Part shown: piece by piece, positions 1 through 11,799 of the stretch | How the letters are laid out: each line of letters begins with the position of its first letter | Position numbering within the stretch: the stretch's first letter is position 1 | NCBI RefSeq assembly: GCF_000797465.1 | Contig: NZ_JSWG01000015.1 | Location: 248,001-312,000 of the forward strand | Length of the DNA stretch: 64,000 nt | From: Psychroserpens jangbogonensis | Lineage (GTDB): Bacteria; Bacteroidota; Bacteroidia; Flavobacteriales; Flavobacteriaceae | Direction: 5' to 3' | The notes under the pieces: generated by a model | Database searches by the model: none | What the model was told of the DNA's origin: nothing | What the model saw: only the letters and a program-made list of their open reading frames with translations | Made by a program: the position numbers and the translations under genes

Positions 1-155
1 TGTTCTATTTGCCTTTGAATTTTATCAGCTTCAGCATATTTCTTATCACTTTCAGTTCTATCTGTAGTTGATAAAGTGTGCCATTCTTTCATTAGCTTTT
101 CATATTTTTTTTGAAGCTTATCAACTTCAGACGTTTTTTTGAATAATCCGAACAT
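1..155 (-). CDS. Lacal_2735-like small protein (partial, runs off the left edge)
   Basis: ATG at 153-155 opens a frame that stays open to the window edge, giving 51 codons with no stop. The product starts MFGLFKKTSEVDKLQKKYEK and continues as a charged, helical, Lys/Glu-rich chain. This resembles the short (about 60 aa) Lacal_2735-type proteins of Flavobacteriia, whose function is unknown. It lies 7 bases downstream of the glutathione peroxidase on the same strand, so it is probably the last gene of the same operon. The identification rests on the N-terminal pattern only, because the C-terminus is outside the window. Confidence 0.6.
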   Translation of the reverse strand, partial: MFGLFKKTSEVDKLQKKYEKLMKEWHTLSTTDRTESDKKYAEADKIQRQIE

Positions 156-162
156 ATGCTAT

Positions 163-696
163 TTATTTTAAGTGTTTTGTGATTTTTGAACTCGTTGGTG
201 AAGTGATTGAATAATAATAATCAATAAATTCGCCTTGAGGGTCAACTAAATATTTCTGAAAATTCCATTTTACTTTTGAATTAGATTTTCCGTTTAATTG
301 CTTTTGGGTTAACCAAGTATACAAAGGATGTTGGTTACTGCCTTTTACATCTATTTTTTCAGAGATAGGGAAAGTAACGCCATAATTAATCTCACAAAAT
401 GATTCAATGTCTTCAGCACTACCTGGTTCTTGTTTTCCAAACTGATTGCAAGGAACACCTATGATAACTAATTTGTCCTTATAGGTGTCACTTAGTTCTT
501 GTAAACCTTTATATTGCGGTGTAAATCCACATTTTGAAGCCACATTAACAAAAAGTATGTATTTGTATTTAAAATCTGAAAGGTGCAATGGTTTCCCATT
601 AAGGCCATTAATTTTGATGTCGTAAATGGAAGTTTTGTTCATTTTATTTGTTGGTTTTGAGAATAATGTGACCATAAAAATTTTAAATGGATTCAT
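163..696 (-). CDS. Glutathione peroxidase (thioredoxin-fold peroxidase)
   Basis: A 177-aa peroxidase of the GPx family, expected to reduce hydroperoxides with thiol (often thioredoxin-supplied) electrons. The tetrad is visible: peroxidatic Cys56 in NVASKCGFT, Gln89 in CNQFGKQEPG, and Trp144-Asn145 in KWNF. It is a Cys enzyme, not a selenocysteine one. Family members usually begin near Met19 (MNKTSIYDIK), so the first 18 residues may be an extension; they are weakly hydrophobic but not a clear signal peptide. The ATG lies 1 base after the stop of the upstream SDR gene, so translation is probably coupled. It fits the photo-oxidative protection theme of this locus. Confidence 0.9.
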   Translation of the reverse strand: MNPFKIFMVTLFSKPTNKMNKTSIYDIKINGLNGKPLHLSDFKYKYILFVNVASKCGFTPQYKGLQELSDTYKDKLVIIGVPCNQFGKQEPGSAEDIESFCEINYGVTFPISEKIDVKGSNQHPLYTWLTQKQLNGKSNSKVKWNFQKYLVDPQGEFIDYYYSITSPTSSKITKHLK

Positions 697-697
697 A

Positions 698-1381
698 TTA
701 TATCTTGAAAGTTACAATTCCGCAATCCATTTCAAAAATTTGCCCTGATATTGAACTAGATTTTTCAGATAATAAAAATTCTGCCATTCCTGCGACATCT
801 TGAGGCTGCAAGAATTTCTTCATTGGATGACGCTCTGTAATGTTTGCAATCATTTTATCATTACGTAATAATTTTGACGCTAGGTCTGTGTTAGTAACAG
901 TAGGAGCAATGGCATTGATTCTCAAAGTGGTTGCTAATTCAGCTCCTAACGATTTTACTAAACCTTCAACACCAGATTTTGCCGCTGCAACACTAGCATG
1001 AAATGGCATTCCTAATTTGGCTGCTACTGTACTAAATAATACAACAGATGGATTGTCACCATTTTTAATAACATTCAAATACTTCTGAATTGCTTTTACT
1101 GCTCCAATGACATTGATTTCGTAATCAGCTCTAAACTCATCCAAACTTAAACGAGTTATTGGTTTAAGGTTTATACTTCCTGGGCAATAAACTAATCCAT
1201 CAGCAAATTCTATATCTGGCAATTCATCTTTAAGGATGTCACAATCGTAATGAAGTAGGTTGTGATGTGCGAGTTCGGGCTTTGATCTACTAATATTTAT
1301 GACCTTATGATTTTCAAGTAAAGTGGAAACTATAGCGTTTCCAATACCTCGACTACCACCAATAACTATGAATGTTTTCAT
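698..1381 (-). CDS. SDR-family protein with a non-canonical active site
   Basis: A 227-aa Rossmann-fold short-chain dehydrogenase/reductase-like protein. The N-terminal nucleotide-binding motif is GGSRGIG (residues 8-14), and Asn90 (YEIN) and Ser117 match parts of the SDR catalytic set. The YxxxK motif is changed: Lys135 is present in HASVAAAKSG, but the Tyr position (131) is Val. Dehydrogenase activity is therefore doubtful; it may bind NAD(P) without classical catalysis. The rest of the fold, including the NAIAPTVTNT segment after strand 6, is intact, so this is not a decaying gene. It sits between the 75-aa gene and gpx in the second block of the photolyase locus. The substrate is unknown. 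Confidence 0.85.
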   Translation of the reverse strand: MKTFIVIGGSRGIGNAIVSTLLENHKVINISRSKPELAHHNLLHYDCDILKDELPDIEFADGLVYCPGSINLKPITRLSLDEFRADYEINVIGAVKAIQKYLNVIKNGDNPSVVLFSTVAAKLGMPFHASVAAAKSGVEGLVKSLGAELATTLRINAIAPTVTNTDLASKLLRNDKMIANITERHPMKKFLQPQDVAGMAEFLLSEKSSSISGQIFEMDCGIVTFKI

Positions 1382-1464
1382 TTCAATTTATTATTTTAAA
1401 AGAGCGCAACATAACTAGGCCAAACCGTTTTCTGATACGCTCATTGTACATTTCTAGGTTAAGT

Positions 1465-1692
1465 TTATGCAGTTAATGGAGTGCCTTTTAATCGCTTTTC
1501 AACTTTTCTTTTGATAAGGGTTAAACGCTTCATAATATCCATAACTTTTTGATCTTTATGTTCTTTATAGATTTGATTTAAATCTAATATTAATTGTTTT
1601 GCTTCACGAGAAATTTTAACACGATCGCTTGTTGACAGCGACTTCATTTTTCTCTGCTCAAATTCTAAGGCTCTATTAATTACTTCCATCAT
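1465..1692 (-). CDS. Small conserved helical protein, function unknown
   Basis: A 75-aa, highly charged (Lys/Glu/Arg-rich) protein that looks almost entirely alpha-helical. It has no signal peptide, membrane segment or cysteine. Two Met codons are adjacent at the start (1690-1692 and 1687-1689), and either could be used. The gene begins 1 base after the folE stop, so it is very likely co-transcribed and co-translated with folE. I do not recognise a named family. The context (folE upstream, SDR and glutathione peroxidase downstream) suggests an accessory role in the photoprotection locus, but nothing in the sequence defines a function. Confidence 0.7.
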   Translation of the reverse strand: MMEVINRALEFEQRKMKSLSTSDRVKISREAKQLILDLNQIYKEHKDQKVMDIMKRLTLIKRKVEKRLKGTPLTA

Positions 1693-1693
1693 C

Positions 1694-2389
1694 TTAATTA
1701 TTTATATAGTTCTGTAATTCTGATATTTTTTCTGATTTATTAAACTGTCCACCATAATACGATGTAACAGTTGTTGATGTATCATCTTTAATTCCTCTTG
1801 AAGACACACATAAATGTTTAGCATCAATAATAACGGCTACATCATCAGTTTCTAAAATGGATTTCAATTCTTCCGCAATCTGATTTGTTAAACGTTCTTG
1901 TACCTGTGGACGTTTAGCATAATATTGTACAATTCTATTTAGCTTTGATAATCCAATTACTTTTCCAGATGAAATGTATGCTACATGAGCTTTACCAATA
2001 ATTGGTACAAAATGATGTTCACAGTTGGAGTAGAAGGTGATATTTTTTTCTACCAACATTTGATTGTATTGATACTTGTTATCAAACAACGCTACTTTAG
2101 GTTTGTTAGCTGGATTTAAACCAGAAAATATCTCGTCGATGTACATTTTGGCAACCCGTTTTGGTGTGCCTTGAAGTGAATCATCTGTGAGATCTAATCC
2201 CATAACGTCCATGATTTCTTCAAATAAAATAGCTATACGCTGTTTCTTTTCGTCATCATTTAATTTAAAAGCATCTGCTTTCATGGGTGTTTCTAGACCA
2301 GTGTATAGATGGTCATCGCCAATTTCGGAAGTTGAAAAGCCATTTAATTTATGGCCATTTCTTTTGAGATTTAAAGTGTTTGTACTCAT
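1694..2389 (-). CDS. folE: GTP cyclohydrolase I
   Basis: Catalyses GTP to 7,8-dihydroneopterin triphosphate, the first step of tetrahydrofolate and pterin synthesis. At 231 aa it has the usual length, with a variable ~45-residue N-terminus. Zinc ligands are visible: Cys123 and His126 in SNCEHHFVP and Cys194 in KHLCVSSRG; His125 is the catalytic His. The conserved GLSKLNRIV and QERLTNQIA segments follow. The gene lies inside a cluster of three photolyase/cryptochrome genes. Because many photolyases carry a methenyltetrahydrofolate antenna, a dedicated folE copy could feed chromophore synthesis; that link is inference. Whether the genome has a second folE cannot be seen here. Confidence 0.96.
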   Translation of the reverse strand: MSTNTLNLKRNGHKLNGFSTSEIGDDHLYTGLETPMKADAFKLNDDEKKQRIAILFEEIMDVMGLDLTDDSLQGTPKRVAKMYIDEIFSGLNPANKPKVALFDNKYQYNQMLVEKNITFYSNCEHHFVPIIGKAHVAYISSGKVIGLSKLNRIVQYYAKRPQVQERLTNQIAEELKSILETDDVAVIIDAKHLCVSSRGIKDDTSTTVTSYYGGQFNKSEKISELQNYINN

Positions 2390-2405
2390 TTAAAGTCTTT
2401 TTAGT

Positions 2406-2443
2406 GTGCTGTCCTAAGGAACTCATCTCCTTAGTCAAAGCAC
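2406..2443 (-). promoter_or_regulatory. Stem-loop between the TIGR03643 gene and folE
   Basis: CTAAGGA (2414-2420) pairs with TCCTTAG (2428-2434) around a 7-base loop, and outside this GTGCT (2406-2410) pairs with AGCAC (2439-2443). The structure fills nearly all of the 55-base gap between the two genes. It has no T-run on the minus strand, so it does not look like an intrinsic terminator. It could act as an mRNA processing or stability element or an attenuator ahead of folE. Seen as paired sequence only; the role is inferred. Confidence 0.5.
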
Positions 2444-2444
2444 G

Positions 2445-2717
2445 TTATCGTTTTGATATCGAGTTTTGGGTTATTTGTTTTTGTCTGGAACATTTAAATC
2501 TACCCTCTGAAAATGTTCGTAATTTTTCATGTTTTGTTTTACGTCCTTGAACTCGTTTGCGCCACATTCTGAAACTTTTTGGTTTCATCTCTTTTCGCAT
2601 GAATTCAATTACTTCTTGTTCTTTTAAACCAAATTGAAATTCTATTGCTTCAAATGTGGTTCTGTCTTCCCAAGCCATTTCTATAATTCTATCTGTCGCA
2701 ATTGTATCCAATTCCAT
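2445..2717 (-). CDS. TIGR03643 / DUF2805 family protein
   Basis: A 90-aa basic protein. Residues 1-60 match the TIGR03643 (DUF2805) pattern: a helical segment MELDTIATDRIIEMAWEDRT followed by FGLKEQEVIEFMR and KPKSFRMWRKRV, which looks like a small helix-turn-helix with a W-x-R-x-R-basic tail. Members of this family are repeatedly found next to photolyase/cryptochrome genes, but no biochemical role is established. The C-terminal 25 residues are Lys/Arg/Gln-rich and may bind nucleic acid (inference). The ATG lies 1 base after the stop of the 149-aa gene upstream. Confidence 0.8.
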   Translation of the reverse strand: MELDTIATDRIIEMAWEDRTTFEAIEFQFGLKEQEVIEFMRKEMKPKSFRMWRKRVQGRKTKHEKLRTFSEGRFKCSRQKQITQNSISKR

Positions 2718-2718
2718 A

Positions 2719-3168
2719 CTAAAACTGAAAATTAAATCGTTCGTCGTACTTTACTTTCGCATCTAATAACTTATTTAAAAAGGGTTTATTCTCTTTAAAC
2801 GGCATATTGTTTTTAAAATGAATAAATTTTCCTTGAGCATGTATGCTTGTTCCATTCGTTTTATAAATTACCAATTGGTAATAAGGAATTACCCAAATGA
2901 AATTTTTCAGTCCTTTATTGATGTAAACAAGAATGCCATCGGATCGCATTTCAATATTTGAATAATTAATATCTGAAATTAGATTAAGATATTGTTTCAT
3001 ATTCGGACTAGTTTCTTCAATAATCATGCGTTTTGAACCAACACCACCCATTTTAATAGATTCAATGAAAGAATAAGACTTGCCTATCAAATCATTGATC
3101 ATTTGTTTGTGTTCTTTATTTGGATGTGTAGAATCTAAAATCAATCTGTTGAAACCTTTAATACTCAA
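2719..3168 (-). CDS. Conserved hypothetical protein, first gene of the second block
   Basis: A 149-aa soluble protein I cannot assign to a named family. It has a basic Gly/Lys segment (IKMGGVGSKRMIIEE, about residues 39-53) followed by alternating hydrophobic strands (GILVYINK, FIWVIPYYQLVIY), suggesting an alpha/beta fold. The frame has no ATG at its beginning; the first possible start is TTG (3166-3168), with an in-frame stop 12 codons upstream. The first in-frame ATG is residue 23 (position 3102), which would give 127 aa. The TTG overlaps a TAAATTTG promoter-like -7 element, so the start is uncertain. It heads the TIGR03643-folE-SDR-GPx block. Confidence 0.7.
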   Translation of the reverse strand: MSIKGFNRLILDSTHPNKEHKQMINDLIGKSYSFIESIKMGGVGSKRMIIEETSPNMKQYLNLISDINYSNIEMRSDGILVYINKGLKNFIWVIPYYQLVIYKTNGTSIHAQGKFIHFKNNMPFKENKPFLNKLLDAKVKYDERFNFQF

Positions 3169-3222
3169 ATTTACAAAATGTTTATACTTTTCTACATATG
3201 TTTAAACAAAAATTTAACATAA
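3166..3222 (-). promoter_or_regulatory. Promoter/operator block of the second photolyase-locus unit
   Basis: On the minus strand TGTA (3193-3196), 19 bases, then TAAATTTG (3166-3173) matches the Bacteroidota -33/-7 layout. Just upstream, 3199-3219 carries an imperfect palindrome with arms TGTTTAAA and TTTAACA. The whole block aligns over about 50 bases with the block upstream of the TetR gene (11743-11799), with the same spacing and orientation. A shared operator for one regulator is the simplest reading. Confidence 0.6.
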
Positions 3223-3271
3223 CGCTATAGGTTTTACTAATAACACATTTAAGTGTTTGTTTTTCAGGGTG

Positions 3272-4756
3272 TTAATTTGTAAATTTCGCTCCTCTTAATG
3301 TGTGTTTTTTAAGAATTCTAAGACTTTCCTCTTTTACTTTTTTGTTTTTGCGAAGATTCCATAATATATCTGTAGCCCTTTTACGGGTTTCGTTCATATC
3401 TACTATTGGATATGGATAATCCTTTCCCAAATGAAAGCCATAAAACTGTTGCTCCATCTCTGTCATTAAGTATGGTTCATGTGCAAAAGGAATATCAAGA
3501 TCTCTTAATTCTGGGACCCATTTTTTTATAAATAAGGCATCCGGATCATGTTCTAAGCTATTTTTTATAGGATTATAAATCCTTAACATGTTTGTTCCTG
3601 TTTCACCAGCTTGCATTTGTAATTGTGGGAAATGTATGCCTGGCTCAAAATCTAAAAACATCTGTGATAAATGTTGTGATGCAGCTTGCCATGGTTGCCA
3701 TAAATTGTGTGTAAAAAAGGATACAACTAAAGCACGCATTCTGAAATTCAAATACCCTGTTTCGTTTAAGCAGCGCATGCAAGCATCAATTAAAGGATAG
3801 CCAGTTTGTCCTGTTTCCCAAACAATCTGATAGTGTTTTGAAATTTCTTTCTTCAACTTTTGAAACCCTTTATTCACACTCTCTTGTTGCATGGTATGTT
3901 CCATTTCAAACTTTTGAATAAAATGAGCCTGCCATCGTAATCGAGACATAAACGCTTCTAATGCTTTTTTGTTATGAGCAGTTTTTTTGAGAAAAAAGGC
4001 TTTTCGGTAGACTTCTCTAATTGATAAGTTTCCCCAAGCTATATATGGTGATATTCTGCTGCATCCTGTTCTTGCTAACTCTGGTTTCGAGATGTGAGTC
4101 ATGTAGTTAACATAACGTTTGTTAAGAAAGGAGTCTAAATACTTTGTTCCCATTGTACGTCCGCCTTTTTGAAATAAGGTGTCTTTAGGAGTTTCTAGTG
4201 ATGGAATAGTTAATAGTTCTTCTAATACATCTATTTCTTGAATGTTTAGTAATTGATTTTCTGATGGAGAGAAAGATAATGGTTCGGTTTCAAAATAGGC
4301 ATTACACATTTTAGTCCATTTTTCACGATCTTTTAAACCACGTTGCACACCATTATTTATGGTTTCATGCCAAGAAATCAAATTGTTTTTACAGAACCGT
4401 TTAAATGATTTATCTCTATTATAAGTCACAAGAATTCCAGTTTCTTGATGAGAATAAATATCTCTAATCGTATATAACTCCATTAATTGGTTTATTGCTG
4501 AAATAATATCCGCTTCAACAGTAAATACCTTTGAATTGTATGGCTCAAGACGCTGATTTAAATCGATAATGGATTCTTTAATGAAATTCCAATGACGCTC
4601 ACTATAATGCTTATCTTCTATGAGCATTTTTTCAAATGCATAAAGTAGGAGTGTGCGTTCTCCCGAAGCTATAGCTTTAAATATCGCCTCATTATCTTCT
4701 AATCGAAGATCACGTTTCAACCAAACGACATTTATTTTTGGAGCGTTAGTACTCAT
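3272..4756 (-). CDS. Photolyase/cryptochrome family flavoprotein (FAD_binding_7 type)
   Basis: A 494-aa photolyase/cryptochrome. The N-terminal alpha/beta antenna domain starts VVWLKRDLRLEDNEAI (residues 10-25). The C-terminal helical FAD domain shows ISPYIAWGNLS, the RLRWQAHF helix, TGYPLIDACMR, LNFRMRALV and the EPGIHFPQLQMQAGETGT segment that lines the flavin. It is expected to use FAD and blue/near-UV light either to repair pyrimidine dimers or to act as a photoreceptor; the subfamily cannot be settled by eye. Its ATG overlaps the end of the Fe-S photolyase gene by 11 bases, so the two are translationally coupled. It is the third photolyase-type gene in a row. Confidence 0.9.
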   Translation of the reverse strand: MSTNAPKINVVWLKRDLRLEDNEAIFKAIASGERTLLLYAFEKMLIEDKHYSERHWNFIKESIIDLNQRLEPYNSKVFTVEADIISAINQLMELYTIRDIYSHQETGILVTYNRDKSFKRFCKNNLISWHETINNGVQRGLKDREKWTKMCNAYFETEPLSFSPSENQLLNIQEIDVLEELLTIPSLETPKDTLFQKGGRTMGTKYLDSFLNKRYVNYMTHISKPELARTGCSRISPYIAWGNLSIREVYRKAFFLKKTAHNKKALEAFMSRLRWQAHFIQKFEMEHTMQQESVNKGFQKLKKEISKHYQIVWETGQTGYPLIDACMRCLNETGYLNFRMRALVVSFFTHNLWQPWQAASQHLSQMFLDFEPGIHFPQLQMQAGETGTNMLRIYNPIKNSLEHDPDALFIKKWVPELRDLDIPFAHEPYLMTEMEQQFYGFHLGKDYPYPIVDMNETRKRATDILWNLRKNKKVKEESLRILKKHTLRGAKFTN

Positions 4757-6278
4757 CTTGATGTTCTATTATATGTTGTGCTTTTTCTTTTATATTTTGA
4801 AGATCTTGTTTATTCATTTTATCTAGTAGACTGTACATCATTCCCATTCTGAAATTGTTTCCTAGTTGTTCTCGTTTTTCATCTAAAAAATTCCAATACA
4901 GACTATTAAACGGACAAGCATCATCTCCAATTTTTTTACTCTTGTTATAGTGACAATCACCACAGTAATTACTCATTTTGTTAATGTATGATCCTGAAGA
5001 TACATAAGGTTTGGTTGCAATCTTTCCGCCATCTGCAAACTGACTCATTCCTCTTGTGTTTGTAATTTGAACCCATTCAATCGCATCTACATAAACGCCC
5101 AAATACCATTCGTCAACTTCGTCTGGATGTGTTTGAGTTAATAACGCATAATTTCCAGTAATCATTAATCGCTGAATATGATGAGCATATCCATTATCTA
5201 ATGAATTAGTGATGGCATGTTTGAGACAATTCATTTTCGTATTACCAGTCCAAAAGAATTTGGGAAGCTTATTGTGATTATCCAATTCATTCTTTGCTTT
5301 GTATTCTGGCATAAATGCCCAATACATGCCTCTCATATATTCTCGCCAACCAATAATTTGCCTAATAAATCCTTCGACCTGAGATATATTAATATCGTCG
5401 CCATGTTTTCTGTAATAATTGATAACTGACGTTACAATATCCTTTGGTGAAATTAATTTCAAGTTCATCGCAAATGATAATCTTGAATGGAAGAGATAGT
5501 TCTCTTTCGTATGCATAGCATCTTGGTAAGTTCCAAAATGTATTAATAATTCTTCACAGAAATATTTTAGTTGCTCAATGGCTTGAGCTCTTGTTATTGG
5601 ATAAGAAAAGGTTTTGGTTTCAAACCGTCCTATAGTTTCAATATTTACTTTTTCAAGATCTTTTCTAACCTTAGAAATATCATTTTTGAATGCTTTGAAA
5701 TCAGGTATTTCAACATCACCTTTCCATTTGTTTCTATTGCTTTTATCGTAATTCCATTTGCCACCTTCCGGTTGTCCTGCAATCATTAAAATATCGTGTT
5801 TCTTGCGCATATCTCTATAGAAGTTTTCCATGAGATATTGCTTTTTCCCTTTAAAGAAGGTCGATAAATCATTACGATTTGTATAAAAATGTTCTGCAGA
5901 AACAACCTTTGAAGAAATGTCTATCGAATCGCAAAATGAATTCAATTGGTCATCTAAGCGATATTCATCAGGATACATGAATTCAAAGTGTTCAACTTTG
6001 TGTTCTTTTATTAATTCTGAAAGATTACTTGTTAAAGACTGTGTGTTGTTTGTATCATTAATTTTTATATATGTTAACTGATGGCCTTGAGCCTCTAAAT
6101 CTTGAGCAAATTGACGCATAGCAGCGAAAAAACCAATCACTTTCTGAATATGATGCTTCACATAGTCTGTTTCTTGACGCATTTCAAATAAACAAAACAA
6201 AGTGTCATCATTTACCTCTTTAAACCAAGAGTGTTTTATATTGAGCTGATCACCTAAAACAAGTTTGAGTGTTTTCAT
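4746..6278 (-). CDS. Fe-S bacterial cryptochrome/photolyase (PhrB/CryB-like, FeS-BCP)
   Basis: A 510-aa member of the prokaryotic (6-4) photolyase group that carries a 4Fe-4S cluster. The N-terminus LVLGDQLNIKHSWF is typical of the group, as are the helical FAD segments IIGWREYMRGMYW and the His-rich YAHHIQRLMITGNYALL. The four cluster cysteines are visible: one in MNCLKHAI and three in NYCGDCHYNK...DDACPF toward the C-terminus. Known members repair (6-4) photoproducts and use a lumazine-type cofactor as antenna. It starts directly after the cry-DASH stop with no gap and overlaps the next photolyase gene. Alternative functions such as light sensing cannot be excluded. Confidence 0.92.
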   Translation of the reverse strand: MKTLKLVLGDQLNIKHSWFKEVNDDTLFCLFEMRQETDYVKHHIQKVIGFFAAMRQFAQDLEAQGHQLTYIKINDTNNTQSLTSNLSELIKEHKVEHFEFMYPDEYRLDDQLNSFCDSIDISSKVVSAEHFYTNRNDLSTFFKGKKQYLMENFYRDMRKKHDILMIAGQPEGGKWNYDKSNRNKWKGDVEIPDFKAFKNDISKVRKDLEKVNIETIGRFETKTFSYPITRAQAIEQLKYFCEELLIHFGTYQDAMHTKENYLFHSRLSFAMNLKLISPKDIVTSVINYYRKHGDDINISQVEGFIRQIIGWREYMRGMYWAFMPEYKAKNELDNHNKLPKFFWTGNTKMNCLKHAITNSLDNGYAHHIQRLMITGNYALLTQTHPDEVDEWYLGVYVDAIEWVQITNTRGMSQFADGGKIATKPYVSSGSYINKMSNYCGDCHYNKSKKIGDDACPFNSLYWNFLDEKREQLGNNFRMGMMYSLLDKMNKQDLQNIKEKAQHIIEHQDEY

Positions 6279-7589
6279 CTAAAAAAGAGTGTCTTGTATC
6301 CAGAGTTTTTGAAACTTGCCATTAGTATCATAACGTTCGGCTTGGAGGTTAGTATTAAATTTTCTATCTCTTGGGTCATTACCAACGCCAGCAACATACA
6401 TCCAGTTTCCATAGTTGCTATGCACATCATAATCAATGAGCATTGTTTCAAAATAAGCAGCACCAATTCGCCAATCTAATAGCATGTCTTTGGCAAGAAA
6501 TGAAGCCACATTTTGTCTACCTCTATTGCTCATCCAGCCTGTTTTTTTGAGTTCAATCATATTGGCATTTACAAATGAAGATTTCGTTTCTCCATTAATC
6601 CATTTTCGGATTTGGTGTTCATCAGTTTTCCATTCGTAGACTTTGTCTAGAATTCCTCCAACTTTGAAAATTTTGTTTTGATGTTTTAATGAGGTGTATT
6701 TGAAATAATCTCTCCAGATCAATTCGAATATGAGCCAATAAGTAGAGTCGTTTTTGTAGTATTCTTTTTCAAATTGTTTGACTTGCCAATAAATTGTTCT
6801 TGCCGAAATACTTCCATTAGCTAGCCATGGTGAAAACTTAGAGCTAAAATCGGTTCCTATTAATCCATTTCTAGTTTTCTTATATAACCTTAATTTTTTA
6901 GTTTCAAAAAAATAATCGTTTAATCGTTCTAAAGCAATTGTTTCACCACCTTTAAAAGGAAATGCCGAGTTTGGGTGTGTTTCAAAGGACTCAAAACCAA
7001 AATATTCAAGTGAAGGAATTAAAGTCGTATTAATGATGTTGTCAATTTTTTCTACGGATTCACTTTCTATTAAATGCCTTATCGTACTATCTTTTTCAAC
7101 CTTTTTTCTGAAATTAGTAAATACTTGTGGAATCTCTGAAAAGGACATATTTATATCATCAGGATGATATAGAAGTTGGTCGTAGGATTGGTTTATAATC
7201 ACCTCGTTAGGTAGTGATTCTTTTAGATCATTTAAATCTTGTACTTCTTCACTTGTCCATTCTCTTTGAAGGTATATGGGCTTTATATTAAATGTTTCAA
7301 CCAATTCTTTAATAAGGATTTCAAGAGATTTAACCGAAACAAATAATTCTATGTTTAAAGCTTTGAGATTTGCTTTTAAATCTATAATGGTTTCAATTAA
7401 GAATTGAGTTCTAAATTTTTCAGTTTTTTTGAATCCTAAGTCTGATATTTCGAAATGCTTTGGGTTAAAACAATAACACGCAATTACTGATTTATGATTA
7501 CTAATAGCAGTGTTCAAAACGGTATTATCTTGAACTCTCAAGTCGTTCCTAAACCATACAAGCGCTATGTCTTTTTGTGTCGTCTGCAT
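6279..7589 (-). CDS. DASH-type cryptochrome
   Basis: A 436-aa cry-DASH flavoprotein. The N-terminal photolyase domain begins [14 protein letters not shown]. The C-terminal FAD domain contains [50 protein letters not shown] and the diagnostic [20 protein letters not shown] motif near the end. Known DASH proteins repair dimers in single-stranded DNA and can act in light signalling. The start ATG (7587-7589) lies within the 3' end of the DUF2256 gene (25-base overlap), so it is tightly coupled. It is the first of three consecutive photolyase-family genes. Confidence 0.94.
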
Positions 7590-7708
7590 TTTTCACTACA
7601 ATATTTTACATTGTCCCAATTATTTTTCCATTTTTTACGCCAACTAAAAGGTAAACCACAAGTTAGACAGGTCTTTTCTGGCAAGTTTTGTTTTTTGTGA
7701 TTAGACAT
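7565..7708 (-). CDS. DUF2256 small Cys-rich (zinc-ribbon-like) protein
   Basis: A 47-aa gene, short enough to be missed by length filters. Its product begins [20 protein letters not shown], continues [17 protein letters not shown] and ends [10 protein letters not shown]. The two Cys pairs (C14-x2-C17 and C37-x3-C41) and the FxWRKKW core are the DUF2256 signature, a family often encoded beside photolyases. It overlaps the SDR-DUF2867 stop by 8 bases upstream and the cry-DASH start by 25 bases downstream, so it is embedded in a coupled translation chain. It probably binds a metal ion; the function is unknown. Confidence 0.9.
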
Positions 7709-9125
7709 CTACAAGTTTGTTTATCATTCCTTTAAAAATAAATCCATGAAAAGGTAAAACACTGTACCAATATAATCTGCCCCAAAGTCCACGTGGTCTA
7801 AAAGTCGCAGTTTGTTTAAGTAATCCATCTTCTATTTTAAACTCTAGCCAAGCTTCACCAGGAAGACGCATTTCAGCATATAGAAGTAGTTTTTGTTGCT
7901 TTTTATCTGCATAAATGACACGCCAAAAATCCAAAGCATCTCCAACTTCTAAATTGGTAGGACTTGTTCGTCCTCGACGTAAACCAATACCACCAACAAG
8001 TTTATCTATATAGCCTCTAATTTTCCATAGGAATGTACCGTAGTACCATCCATTTTTTCCGCCAATGCTCCATATTTTATTAATGGTTTTATCCGTGTCT
8101 ATGACTTTACGTTCTTTATAATCTTTGAAGCATCCAAATTTTGGGACATTGATATATTTATGAAGATTGTTGCGAAGCCTTCCGCTGCTTATCATGGAAT
8201 CTTTCCAGCTAGACACAATACTATTTTGTTCAATTTTTTCGAATGCCAATTCAACAGCTTGCTTGTAAGTTAATGGATTCACTTTGAGTAAATCATTAAT
8301 ATTACTTGGTTTACCTATAATTTGAACTCCCATACTATCTACTAAAGCGGTAGCGAGCTTATATGATGTTGATGTTACAAAGTAAAGCCAGTATGAAGAT
8401 AATTTTGGTGTCATTACAGGAACGGTCAAAATGTAACGTTTTAGTCCTCTAACCTCTGCAAACTGAAGTAACATTTGCTTATACGTTAAAACTTCAGAAC
8501 CAAAAACATCAAATGATTGGTTATACAAATCTTCTCGTCCAGCACTTCTATGAAGAAATGTCAAAACATCACGAACAGATAAAGGCTGGGTCCTTGTATT
8601 TAGCCATTTTGGAGCAATCATAAATGGTAGCTTTTCAACGATATCTCTAATGATTTCAAATGACGAGCTTCCAGAGCCTACAATAATTCCAGCTTTAAAA
8701 ATAGTTAGGTTATAAACATCAGATTTTAAACAATCTTCAACATGTTTTCTAGATTGTAGGTGCTTTGATAAATTGTCTTCATTTGTAATTCCGCTAAGAT
8801 ATATGACTTGTTTGGTATTGGTTGTTTCAATGTAATTTCTGAAGTTAATAGCGCAACGTTCTTCTAATGATTCAAAGTCTTTAGAAGAATTAGACATGGA
8901 ATGAATTAGATAATAGACAATATCAATGTCTTTTGGAATATTATGAAGTGTTTCAGGCTTTAGAAAATCTGCTTCAATTACATCAATAAAATCCTCTTCA
9001 GCATAATTTTTATCAGCACGAAGTTTATCTCTAACTGCACAAACAACATGATGAGCATCGTTGGCTAATAGTGGTATTAACCGTTTGCCAATGTAGCCTG
9101 TAGCCCCTGTAATAAGAATTTTCAT
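7701..9125 (-). CDS. SDR family oxidoreductase with C-terminal DUF2867 domain
   Basis: A 474-aa two-domain protein. Residues 1-300 are an extended/atypical SDR (NAD(P)-binding) domain opening with [14 protein letters not shown] and containing YLSGIT and [15 protein letters not shown] segments. Residues about 330-474 match the DUF2867 C-terminal region ([34 protein letters not shown]), a lipid-binding-like beta domain. Such proteins are related to NmrA/complex I 39-kDa-like SDRs; the substrate is not known. It ends inside the DUF2256 gene, and the flavin reductase stop lies 8 bases upstream of its ATG. A role in membrane or quinone redox protection is inference. Confidence 0.85.
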
Positions 9126-9133
9126 AGTTTAAA

Positions 9134-9748
9134 TTATTTAGGTCTTTGATAGCCAAAACGTTTGTTCTGTTTTGGCACAGAATAGCCATCTAACCCATTA
9201 ATGGTGGCTATCTTTCCTTTTGCTAAATTAATAAAACCATCGTCTTCAAGTAAATTATCGTTTACATGTAAACCAACAATTTTCCCAATTATTAAAATGG
9301 TATTGTTTGCCTTGATTTCTTGTTCTTCAACAAATGCCATAGCTAATTGTAAAGGTACGTTTTTAACAAAAGGCGCTAGAAATTCATTTTTGTATTCGGA
9401 AACTAAATTGGTTTTATCAAACTCTGAAATACTAGATTTGTATTTAGCTGATGTATGATGTGCATCTTCTAAAATGGTTTCATGAATATGATTAATAGTG
9501 TAAAATCCTGTAGCTTTTATATTTTCATATGTATTCCTCAGCATAATTGTTGGTCGTAAAAAAAAACCTAACATTGGAGGATTAGAACCTATGTGTGTTA
9601 CAGAGCTAAAAACTGCTACATTCTCAATTCCGCTTAAAGATTTACTGCCTAATAAATTTGCAGATTTATAGCCAGAACAACTATTAATTAAGTTTATTCT
9701 GTATAAATGTTCAAAGTTGTCAATATCATCATTGTTAATATGAACCAT
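9134..9748 (-). CDS. Flavin reductase-like protein (FMN-binding split barrel)
   Basis: A 204-aa protein of the flavin reductase/DIM6-NTAB split-barrel type, expected to bind FMN and transfer electrons from NAD(P)H. Typical segments are NVAVFSSVTHIGSNPPMLGFF and the conserved TGFYTINHIHE, followed by the dimer strand ILIIGKIVGL. In this locus it could supply reduced flavin or protect flavins, but that is inference. Its ATG overlaps the TAA of the ABC1-kinase gene (TAATG), so translation is coupled. Confidence 0.85.
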   Translation of the reverse strand: MVHINNDDIDNFEHLYRINLINSCSGYKSANLLGSKSLSGIENVAVFSSVTHIGSNPPMLGFFLRPTIMLRNTYENIKATGFYTINHIHETILEDAHHTSAKYKSSISEFDKTNLVSEYKNEFLAPFVKNVPLQLAMAFVEEQEIKANNTILIIGKIVGLHVNDNLLEDDGFINLAKGKIATINGLDGYSVPKQNKRFGYQRPK

Positions 9749-11058
9749 TATAAAGTTCTAAAATTATTGATGTTGATGTCCTTTGCTTTCAAGTCGAACA
9801 TTAGGTTATATAAACCGAAAAAGGTTCTATTCATATAAATGAAGTGTTTAGAACCTCTATTTCCATTCATTTTACGCAGCTCAGTATTTTTAGAATATTT
9901 CTCACCTAACGCAGCAATTTTCCCAAAGAATGCATCATCCGAAAAATCGAAAATTTCTGAATGTAACGGTTCTGTAAAGAGACTTAGCATTTCATGAAAC
10001 ATCTCTGTGAAAAACACAATCTCTTCTTTAGAATCGTCTTCACGTAAAATTTCGAGTTCATAAAGCTTATTCTCAAAATATGTTTTGTTTGAGATATTCT
10101 CTTCTTCTGCTAGTTCAAAATAAGGTTTGTGAAATTCTTCAGGAATTGTTTTCATACAACCAAAATCTAAAGCTATGAGCTCTGCTTCCTCAGATATCAG
10201 GAAATTTCCTGGATGAGGATCTGCATGCACTTTTTTAAGGTTGTGTATTTGGAACATATAAAAATCCCAAAGTGCTTGGCCTAGTTTATTGGCTTTTTCC
10301 TGACTAGTATTATGAGCTACAAATTCTGAAAGGTGCTCACCAGCCATGTAATCCATAGTTATGATACGTTCATTAGAAAGTTCTTCATAATAGCTTGGGA
10401 ATTTTAAGTTTGGAATGTGACTACAAGCTTTTACAATTTCTTTACTTTGTTTGACTTCAAGAATATAATCGGTTTCTTCAGCCAGTTTGTTTTCAACTTC
10501 TTTGAAGTATTTATCAGAGCCTTTTCCTTTAATATTAAACATGCTCATGGCAATTGGCTTTACCATAGCAAGATCTGATGCGATACTTTCTGCAACGCCT
10601 GGATATTGGATTTTCACAGCAAGTTTTTTCCCATACTTAGTTGCCAAGTGGATTTGTCCAATGCTGGCAGCGTTTACAGACGTTGCATTAAAAGTATCAT
10701 ATAATTCATTTGGGAGTTTCCCGAAATATTTTTTAAATGTTTTAATCACCAAAGGAGGTGATAGAGGTGGTACTGAAAATTGAGCTAATGAGAATTTTTC
10801 TACATAGGCTTGAGGCATAATACTTTTTTCCATACTTAGCATTTGAGCGACTTTAAGCGCACTACCTTTTAATTGTTTTAAGCCATCATAGATGTCTGAC
10901 GCATTATTTTCATTTAATCGTTCTTTTGCTTCTTGTTCTGTCTTAGTGATTTTATCTCCATAATACTTAAGATAATTCACGCCAACTTTAGCACCAGTTG
11001 AAACCATTTTGGAGGCACGTTGTATTTTTGAAGTTGGTATTTTATCTATAGTTTTCAT
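9748..11058 (-). CDS. ABC1/AarF/UbiB-family atypical kinase-like protein
   Basis: A 436-aa protein of the ABC1 (UbiB/COQ8) protein-kinase-like family. The N-terminal KxGQ-region helix is LKGSALKVAQMLSME, with the G of KxGQ replaced by Ala (K69-V-A-Q72). The Ala-rich loop is NAASIGQIH (129-137), the lysine strand is LAVKIQYPGV (Lys149), the catalytic loop is HADPHPGNF and the metal-binding DFG is ALDFGCMK. No C-terminal membrane anchor is obvious, so it is likely soluble. Family members support quinone or isoprenoid lipid biosynthesis through ATPase rather than protein-kinase activity. Its place directly after the TetR-type gene in a photolyase operon is unusual. Confidence 0.9.
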   Translation of the reverse strand: MKTIDKIPTSKIQRASKMVSTGAKVGVNYLKYYGDKITKTEQEAKERLNENNASDIYDGLKQLKGSALKVAQMLSMEKSIMPQAYVEKFSLAQFSVPPLSPPLVIKTFKKYFGKLPNELYDTFNATSVNAASIGQIHLATKYGKKLAVKIQYPGVAESIASDLAMVKPIAMSMFNIKGKGSDKYFKEVENKLAEETDYILEVKQSKEIVKACSHIPNLKFPSYYEELSNERIITMDYMAGEHLSEFVAHNTSQEKANKLGQALWDFYMFQIHNLKKVHADPHPGNFLISEEAELIALDFGCMKTIPEEFHKPYFELAEEENISNKTYFENKLYELEILREDDSKEEIVFFTEMFHEMLSLFTEPLHSEIFDFSDDAFFGKIAALGEKYSKNTELRKMNGNRGSKHFIYMNRTFFGLYNLMFDLKAKDININNFRTL

Positions 11059-11068
11059 TTGGAGCTAT

Positions 11069-11725
11069 TTAATTCATGTGGATTTTTTCTTTGAAAATAA
11101 ATTTCCCTAAGTCAATAAGACTACGAATAGGAGCGATGTCTAATACATCAAAACTAGTGTTCACAGATTTTTCAATGAAAATATCAGTTTTTTCAAAACT
11201 CGAAGATGAATCATCAATCCAGAATTTCATAGTTAATAATAATTGTAGCCAGGCAGATTCTTTGAGCCCACGACGCTGAATTCTATCAATTTGTTCTTGT
11301 TTGATTTCAATTAATTCAATACCCAAATGATCTATATAATTGGTGAATGAGTGCTTTAATTCTGAAAGTGAATTCAAACCTTTCAAGCTGTTTTTATGGT
11401 TATCAAGGGCATATAATACGTAGCTTCTATTGGCCGTTAAATTTTCAAAAAATGTGAAGTAGAAACTTAGCAATTTGTTACGAGCATCAAACGAGAGGTA
11501 ATCATCATTTTGTTCTAAAGCATTATGTGTGTTGTCAAAGAAAGCTTTGAAAACATGCTTCTCAATGGATTCAAAAGAAGCAAAAAACTCATAAAATTTT
11601 TGCTCTTCAAAATTGTTTGCTTTAGCAAACGCATAGATGGTTTTTGGATTGTGATTATGTTCAAGAACATAATCCATGTAAAAAGTAATAATGTCGTTAC
11701 TCGTTATATTTTTCTTTTTAGCCAT
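11069..11725 (-). CDS. TetR-family transcriptional regulator
   Basis: A 218-aa protein with a TetR-like N-terminal DNA-binding helix bundle: a helix-turn-helix around NPKTIYAFAKANNFEEQKFYEFFASFESIE (residues about 26-55, written here in part), then an all-helical ligand/dimerisation domain. The HTH is divergent from classical TetR, so the family call is by overall pattern. It is the first gene of the first photolyase block and its promoter carries a nested inverted repeat that is repeated upstream of the second block. This makes it the best candidate for local control and autoregulation. The ligand is unknown. The ABC1-kinase gene follows 10 bases downstream. Confidence 0.75.
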   Translation of the reverse strand: MAKKKNITSNDIITFYMDYVLEHNHNPKTIYAFAKANNFEEQKFYEFFASFESIEKHVFKAFFDNTHNALEQNDDYLSFDARNKLLSFYFTFFENLTANRSYVLYALDNHKNSLKGLNSLSELKHSFTNYIDHLGIELIEIKQEQIDRIQRRGLKESAWLQLLLTMKFWIDDSSSSFEKTDIFIEKSVNTSFDVLDIAPIRSLIDLGKFIFKEKIHMN

Positions 11726-11742
11726 GTCTTATAATTATGGTA

Positions 11743-11799
11743 TAAAGATACAAATGTTTAACAATTATTCAAATATGTTAAACAAAATTTAACAAGACA
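11743..11799 (-). promoter_or_regulatory. Promoter/operator of the TetR-photolyase operon
   Basis: Minus-strand TTTG (11770-11773), 19-base spacer, TATCTTTA (11743-11750): a good Bacteroidota-type promoter 18 bases before the ATG. Two dyads overlap it. TGTTTAACA (11755-11763) is inverted to TGTTAAACA (11776-11784), and a 19-bp palindrome TGTTAAACAAAATTTAACA lies at 11776-11794. Position over the spacer and -33 box fits repression. Nearly the same block occurs at 3166-3222. Confidence 0.65.

Follow-up and report, generated by a model that had tools for sequence, protein, structure and literature searches.

What switches on a long run of photolyase genes together with the mixed set of genes between which they lie? 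The question is raised by one end of the window analysed here, a stretch of 64,000 nucleotides from Psychroserpens jangbogonensis (contig NZ_JSWG01000015.1; G000:C7:248001-312000, G000 being this genome), in which 14 genes at positions 163-11725, all on the minus strand and several of them overlapping, form a cluster. An earlier note, made from the sequence alone, had proposed that these genes are one photodamage-response module and had named a loss of gene order in relatives as evidence that would count against it. Comparison of the gene neighbourhoods showed that the order is conserved, and both blocks of the cluster share an operator-promoter element, an inverted repeat tied to a CarH/LitR-like regulator and hereafter called the dyad; these two results together support a single module. 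We consider it probable that the cluster is a two-operon photorepair/photoprotection module of Flavobacteriaceae that is repressed in the dark by a CarH/LitR-type photoreceptor through the shared dyad.

A shared inverted repeat at both block promoters

The cluster consists of two blocks (transcription units) 127 bp apart, with a promoter inside that gap. The loci used for comparison were the best 80 of 221 relatives found via the Fe-S photolyase of the cluster, a set biased to near kin. The regions upstream of the first genes of the two blocks, which encode a TetR-type protein (block 1) and a 141-residue protein (block 2), were compared and yielded one strong common element. A promoter scan for TGTTTAA-N16-TTAAACA with at most two mismatches in the 14 positions placed the dyad at the TetR start in 66 of 66 loci (58 perfect) and at the start of the 141-aa gene in 70 of 71 (56 perfect; L020 is the sole miss), against 2/66 and 1/71 in once-shuffled promoter controls. 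At the other starts in these loci it was found before folE in 2 of 58 and never before the second short-chain dehydrogenase/reductase gene (SDR2; 0/69), the SDR/DUF2867 gene (0/69), the third (0/60) and fourth (0/68) photolyase genes, the glutathione peroxidase gene (GPx; 0/65) or the TIGR03643 gene (0/72).

When spacings of 4 to 30 were scanned, N16 stood out, with a background of up to 30 loci at spacings of 4-10. Spacings of 26 and 27 form another peak (34 and 13 loci for TetR, 37 and 14 for the 141-aa gene), read as a putative further half-site upstream. The conserved feature is the N16 inverted repeat and not a tandem repeat, the half-site at N26 being present in only 34/66 and 37/71. A box similar to the Bacteroidota -7 element, whose consensus we take to be TAnnTTTG, begins 5 bp after the dyad in 58/66 (TetR) and 59/69 (141-aa gene) matches with at most one mismatch. 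By comparison of loci and genomes, then, the element is shared, its geometry over the promoter is fixed, and it is linked to carH as described below.

Within the 64-kb window the dyad with at most one mismatch occurs nowhere except at the two block promoters. Seven of the nine most distant loci, none of which has TetR in the locus, carry it ahead of the gene that opens the core photolyase operon. A first motif pattern, taken from one promoter and allowing three mismatches, had given 13 matches against 16 in the control and was replaced by the dyad pattern; with at most one mismatch, the latter matches this genome 20 times (both strands) against 6 in the control, so that some one-mismatch dyads are due to chance. 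One such match (C62:724525) falls inside a gene.

A CarH/LitR-like regulator linked to the dyad

Exact dyads lie at four places in this genome, with 0 and 1 in reversed controls: before block 1, in front of a fasciclin gene, some 230 bp ahead of katG, and in the 53-bp gap between a gene for a MerR-B12 protein (here carH) and crtI. Genes for phytoene synthase, a CrtZ-like protein and lycopene cyclase follow downstream of crtI, which was named by PF01593 and its position; CrtZ was named by sequence alone. The MerR-B12 protein carries Wx9EH, ExHxxG and the recognition helix RIWEKRY, and it was assigned as CarH-like because its domains and motifs fit the CarH signatures Wx9EH, D/ExHxxG and an RxWExRY helix given in the covered part of PMC9304148. 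Among its relatives, Wx9EH is present in 40/40 rows and an ExHxxG-type motif in 39/40 (37 distinct genes).

Among the best 30 of 97 carH matches, 24 have the dyad immediately after carH, where the following gene begins (20 perfect, four with one mismatch). An imperfect dyad with two mismatches spans carH's own start, also in 24/30, where the right arm is constrained by coding as well. Both arm variants, TTAAACA and TTAGACA, fit the published CarH half-site TnnACA. Across 120 genomes, the dyad pattern was present in 85/87 with a carH ortholog (491 matches on both strands vs 43 in the reversed control), in 5/9 with only a distant carH (15 vs 6) and in 7/24 with no carH match (23 vs 8, 13 of the 23 coming from the single genome G079); between genomes with an ortholog and those with no match, the difference in dyad presence gives a Fisher p of 1e-12 with kinship ignored.

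The arms of the dyad also vary with the regulator. Seven distant CarH proteins have Lys for Ile in the recognition helix (G038, G040, G014, G066, G098, G032 and G028), and five of the genomes concerned have exact TGTCTAA/TTAGACA dyads: at the TetR promoter in G038 and G040, about 156 bp before carH in G098 and G032, and at three sites in G066. None was found in the five Ile genomes tested (G000, G034, G044, G025 and G007). Distant CarH proteins with Ile are accompanied by a perfect TGTTTAA/TTAAACA dyad, at TetR in G025 and at the carH start in G007.

Proposed mechanism and alternative explanations

In the mechanism we propose, the CarH/LitR-type MerR-B12 protein encoded beside crtI would bind the dyad in the dark and block RNA polymerase at both block promoters. 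Light would then photolyse its adenosylcobalamin (AdoCbl) and free the promoters, and the photolyases, carotenoid enzymes, KatG, fasciclin proteins and redox/lipid-protection genes would be made together, so that a single sunlight sensor would activate repair and sunscreen alike. CarH binding, the role of B12 and the response to light are what we infer by analogy with known CarH proteins.

Several observations weigh against dark repression by CarH through the dyad. The sequence does not tell repression from activation at the dyad, and the published operator architecture is of another kind (see below). Six of the 30 carH loci have no N16 dyad behind carH (among them L155, which has N17), and at the core photolyase operon the dyad was not found in two of the nine distant loci, L096 and L098. 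The Lys genomes are not uniform: in G014 and G028 no exact TGTCTAA dyad was found, G066 has mixed-arm sites at TetR and carH, and all three have one exact TGTTTAA-type match each. Since the Lys group forms one clade in the tree (support 87/77), it represents at best one coupled change of regulator and operator. No dyad was found at TetR in G007 (Ile) or G014. Lastly, G079 (81% complete) has no carH match, yet it has many dyads, one of them at TetR.

The case of G079, where TetR is present and the dyad before it is perfect, can also be cited for the view that it is the TetR-type protein that occupies the dyad and regulates its own cluster, possibly with a lipid or quinone as ligand. Its gene lies directly behind operator 1, and its model has a regular TetR fold with a Foldseek match to 3c07 (E 1.6e-4) and FadR-type regulators among the matches; no sequence relative was found in the Protein Data Bank (PDB). 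We nevertheless judge this role very unlikely, because perfect dyads lie behind carH in four genomes (G019, G048, G072 and G083) with no TetR match at E <= 1e-15, and because the recognition helix, from the alignment, reads as acidic, which also makes DNA binding by this protein doubtful as such. Seven of the nine distant loci keep the dyad at the core operon although TetR is absent from the locus, the part of those genomes that was searched for it. Of the two genomes that have TetR and lack a carH match, the other one, G059 (99% complete), shows no dyad before TetR. TetR operators also usually have closer half-sites.

That some other regulator or sigma factor binds the dyad and merely co-occurs with carH seems to us unlikely, but to a lesser degree. 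There is room for it because binding by CarH is something we infer, because the published CarH operator differs (PMC9304148, covered part) and because the co-change of CarH and dyad is a single event with exceptions; on the other side, the dyad follows carH and, in imperfect form, also overlaps the start of carH itself, its half-site fits TnnACA, and its arms differ along with the CarH recognition helix. A core promoter element is an unlikely identity for the dyad, since the -7 box follows it by about 5 bp in the cluster but falls within it at crtI. Scarcely credible, finally, is a neutral inherited neighbourhood with no shared regulation or function. Full synteny is indeed found mostly among close relatives, and in 28/47 genomes with both, TetR and the Fe-S photolyase gene are separated by over 12 kb or split between contigs; against this, single cluster genes situated elsewhere in the family (SDR/DUF2867, SRPBCC, TetR, 141-aa, 58-aa and SDR2) carry a dyad of their own.

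Relation to known light-responsive systems

Regulation by a CarH-like protein has partial parallels in the literature, the closest being CarH itself and a LitR regulon of Pseudomonas. The class II LitR (PplR/PmlR) regulon of Pseudomonas putida and P. mendocina likewise brings together LitR/CarH-family regulators, phrB, cryB, folE and a nearby short-chain dehydrogenase (PMC9758184), so that its gene content overlaps strongly with that of the cluster. There, phrB, cryB and folE are light-inducible, the light signal passes through a short LOV protein, and many genes of the regulon are grouped about the regulators (PMC9758184). Here the cluster is elsewhere in the genome, carries a dyad operator, and the regulator stands with crt genes. 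Unlike the LOV-dependent class II LitR, the regulator here has the Wx9EH AdoCbl motif. CarH of Thermus, Bacillus and Myxococcales is alike in its MerR domain, Wx9EH, ExHxxG, RxWExRY helix, TnnACA half-site and link to carotenoids, but its known operators sit at carotenoid promoters and are made up of three or four direct repeats of 11 bp in tandem (PMC9304148, covered part); the element described here is a 30-bp inverted repeat with fixed N16 that also precedes photolyase operons, a difference to be added to the points against CarH binding.

In marine Flavobacteriia with proteorhodopsin (PR+), genes for photolyases and related proteins are reported to be close neighbours and to be enriched in the species that bear proteorhodopsin (PMC5932025); for that proximity cluster, the covered part of the text gives no regulator or operator, and both are proposed here. 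Unlike this enrichment, a rhodopsin gene reached the cut-off in 2/15 cluster-bearing genomes examined here (G034 and G046), and this genome gave no rhodopsin match.

Chryseobacterium lacus belongs to the order of this genome. Its carotenoid transcripts are light-induced, and the authors of the study, to whom neither a car nor a lit operon was apparent, called the light regulator of crt unknown; the word photolyase is absent from the text (PMC7064467). Light sensing in non-photosynthetic flavobacteria seems largely open (cf. PMC7064467). As far as open-access literature shows, the operator and its inverted arrangement would be new, as would the link between a photorepair supercluster and a carotenoid regulator in Bacteroidota; searches of that literature, subscription papers being outside its scope, brought up no report of a CarH/LitR operator before photolyase genes in Bacteroidota, nor did they bring up the light-transcriptome work on Dokdonia. 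A concrete regulator-operator pair with a natural change of specificity is directly testable, and the dyad offers a sequence handle for predicting sunlight regulons across the family. DUF2256, TIGR03643, the ABC1 protein and the small orphan proteins gain a defined physiological setting.

Genes outside the cluster that carry the dyad

A broader proposal, which we hold tentatively and with slightly less than even confidence, is that a photoreceptor of the CarH kind, using B12, may be the master sunlight switch of Flavobacteriaceae, acting via the 30-bp inverted repeat, a new form of operator, on one regulon that takes in as many as four enzymes of the photolyase family, the supply of pterins, carotenoids, catalase-peroxidase, proteins with fasciclin domains and, in genomes that have it, proteorhodopsin along with the retinal-forming dioxygenase. 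Among 30 dyad loci from the family sample, carH/crtI, fasciclin or cluster genes start within 300 bp in 21 (20/25 with N16), a count given without a chance level, for which the fasciclin, crtI and katG queries (though not the cluster genes) had been chosen after they were seen beside dyads. The genes concerned are SDR/DUF2867 (3), SRPBCC (2), TetR (2) and 141-aa, 58-aa and SDR2 (1 each) from the cluster, and crtI (5), carH (1) and fasciclin (5) from outside it. Rearranged cluster genes often keep a dyad.

Fasciclin genes follow dyads with at most one mismatch in all four genomes viewed by place (G000, G045, G034 and G044). In G034, the space between the proteorhodopsin gene and a divergent gene for beta-carotene dioxygenase holds a perfect dyad, which precedes the former by about 25 bp (L239:7538-9282, G034:C3). 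At the rhodopsin gene of G046 no N16 dyad with at most two mismatches was found, and an N17 near-match was seen by eye in the gap. If the arrangement were general, the light-driven pump proteorhodopsin would fall under a CarH-type photoreceptor.

Nine of the 30 dyad loci (L109, L115, L116, L117, L120, L122, L123, L131 and L138) have no gene of the query set next to the dyad, whose spacing is 19 in L109, L120 and L122, 17 in L138 and 16 in the others; they may be further members or chance. Two Porph_ging (PF09697) genes of this genome, at L224:7416-8312 and 3528-4361 (G000:C4), lie just behind dyads, one with a perfect core and one with one mismatch.

Layout and conservation of the cluster

The gene content that the earlier note had read from the sequence was borne out. 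The cry-DASH, Fe-S and third FAD_binding_7 photolyase genes lie in a row, overlapping or abutting (gaps of 0 and -11 bp), and DUF2256, TIGR03643, folE, two SDRs, a flavin reductase, ABC1, glutathione peroxidase and the TetR-type gene are all present in the same direction (Table 1). The cluster does not stop at the window edge: it extends 2.3 kb further in unchanged direction, with a 58-aa protein, TspO (PF03073), an SRPBCC-like protein whose PF03364 match is below cut-off, and a further photolyase, so that the whole cluster has four photolyase-family genes. The gene for its 149-aa protein stands, but the protein is most likely 141 aa long from the TTG at 3144, because the longer version would begin at a TTG that overlaps the -7 box, and in most relatives an ATG stands where this genome has 3144. 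For this comparison 37 of 50 usable sequences were taken; a separate set for the 141-aa protein kept 34 relatives, back-extension having met stops in others, and a further one took in 41 of 66 sequences.

Block 1 reads TetR, ABC1, flavin reductase, SDR/DUF2867, DUF2256, cry-DASH, Fe-S photolyase and cryptochrome-like protein, with intergenic gaps of +10, -1, +8, -8, -25, 0 and -11 bp. Block 2 reads 141-aa protein, TIGR03643, folE, 75-aa protein, SDR, GPx, 58-aa protein, TspO, SRPBCC and photolyase, with gaps of 1, 55, 1, 83 and 1 bp within the window.

Table 1. Features of the photorepair cluster and of genes related to it by the dyad. Positions refer to the window unless a contig or locus is named.
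Feature	Position	Strand	Remarks
Operator 1, TTGTTTAA-N16-TTAAACA dyad	11755..11785	-	block 1 promoter; 14/14 core positions
Probable Bacteroidota -7 box TATCTTTA	11743..11750	-	block 1; 4 bp after dyad here
TetR-fold protein	11069..11725	-	first gene of block 1; PF17931 C-terminal domain
ABC1 atypical kinase (UbiB/COQ8-like)	9748..11058	-	PF03109 1e-52; COQ8A/B among PDB matches
Flavin reductase-like protein	9134..9748	-	PF01613
NAD(P)-binding SDR, C-terminal DUF2867	7701..9125	-	
DUF2256, 47 aa	7565..7708	-	PF10013; overlaps both neighbours
cry-DASH	6279..7589	-	TIGR02765, 502 bits vs cut-off 317
Fe-S bacterial cryptochrome/photolyase (DPRP)	4746..6278	-	PF04244 6e-78
Divergent FAD_binding_7 photolyase/cryptochrome (third photolyase-like protein)	3272..4756	-	
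Operator 2, TTGTTTAA-N16-ATAAACA dyad	3179..3209	-	block 2 promoter; one mismatch
-7 box TAAATTTG	3166..3173	-	block 2; 5 bp after dyad
141-aa orphan protein	2719..3144	-	TTG start
TIGR03643/DUF2805	2445..2717	-	
folE, GTP cyclohydrolase I	1694..2389	-	one of three genome copies
75-aa orphan protein	1465..1692	-	present in 63/80 loci
SDR (second SDR, SDR2)	698..1381	-	PF13561
Glutathione peroxidase (GPx)	163..696	-	PF00255
Start of 58-aa protein	1..155	-	block 2 continues outside window (L002:15653-17982)
CarH/LitR-like regulator (MerR-B12 gene)	G000:C1:27976-28872		PF13411 (MerR_1) 3e-16; PF02607 (B12-binding_2) 6e-9
Fasciclin genes behind dyad	L107:6348-7751; L236:4002-5411; L237:3597-4982; L238:2760-3272; L239:1389-2801; L242:3300-4700		

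Presence of each family in the 80 loci was scored by tblastn at E <= 1e-3, with aquaporin left out. The 17 other cluster families each recur in 51 to 79 of the 80, with the order mostly kept, so the cluster is not due to chance. The counts are DUF2256 79, cry-DASH 79, TIGR03643 72, 141-aa protein 71, SDR/DUF2867 70, flavin reductase 69, second SDR 69, fourth photolyase 68, TetR 67, ABC1 67, SRPBCC 67, GPx 65, TspO 65, third photolyase-like gene 60, folE 58 and 58-aa protein 51; they are too low for some loci because some contigs end early, and one SDR count may be too high because weak matches, with identity as low as 24%, may belong to other SDRs. Among the fetched loci, the closest Fe-S photolyases (84% identical) are those of Arcticiflavibacter luteus and Psychroserpens mesophilus.

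A row of DUF2256, cry-DASH and Fe-S photolyase genes is present in 9/9 of the most distant loci (L090-L098), accompanied by TIGR03643 in four, flavin reductase in three, folE in two and GPx in two; TetR, ABC1 and the 141-aa gene were found in none of the nine. The family sample comprised 120 genomes from 119 genera, searched for the Fe-S photolyase at E <= 1e-30 (35 matches with at least 55% identity, the others distant). The Fe-S photolyase is present in 57 of these genomes, TetR in 76 and both in 47, and the two lie within 12 kb of each other in 19/47, or in 15/34 when restricted to the 35 closer matches. The full supercluster is typical of part of the Flavobacteriaceae and not of the whole family.

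Individual proteins of the cluster

The Fe-S bacterial cryptochrome/photolyase has the DPRP domain and the four conserved cysteines of its class; Cys 351/439/442/455, which we take to be the Fe-S cluster ligands, are conserved in 81/81 sequences (its own included). DUF2256 keeps four cysteines in 80/80. Only sequences with at least 80% of the query length entered these counts. The third photolyase-like protein reached no NCBIfam cut-off. In a three-way alignment with the cry-DASH and fourth photolyase of the cluster it keeps two Trp, and the third position of what we assume to be the class I Trp triad is not W; its photochemistry should therefore differ. The gene has no match in 20/80 loci.

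The ABC1 protein has the PF03109 domain and, in place of the KxGQ motif of the ABC1/UbiB/COQ8 kinase family, KVAQ, each position of which is identical in at least 95% of 68 sequences. That TetR and ABC1 might mimic the COQ9-COQ8 pair was considered, but with TetR regulators in the Foldseek list it is kept as no more than a thought. GTP cyclohydrolase I is encoded three times in this genome, and the folE of the cluster is a separate, shorter-matching type that adjoins the Fe-S photolyase in 10/14 other genomes searched. As an extra copy of a separate type it favours a dedicated pterin supply, and its product may serve as a photolyase antenna. The further roles that the earlier note had put forward, the flavin reductase serving the photolyases and the ABC1/SDR pair protecting quinones or lipids, are likewise candidate roles.

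The 141-aa protein gave no Pfam or NCBIfam match. Its AlphaFold model has a mean pLDDT of 94 and a weak PH/PTB-like resemblance, with a best Foldseek E of 0.017 and query-length TM-scores of 0.32-0.54 among the 50 matches listed.

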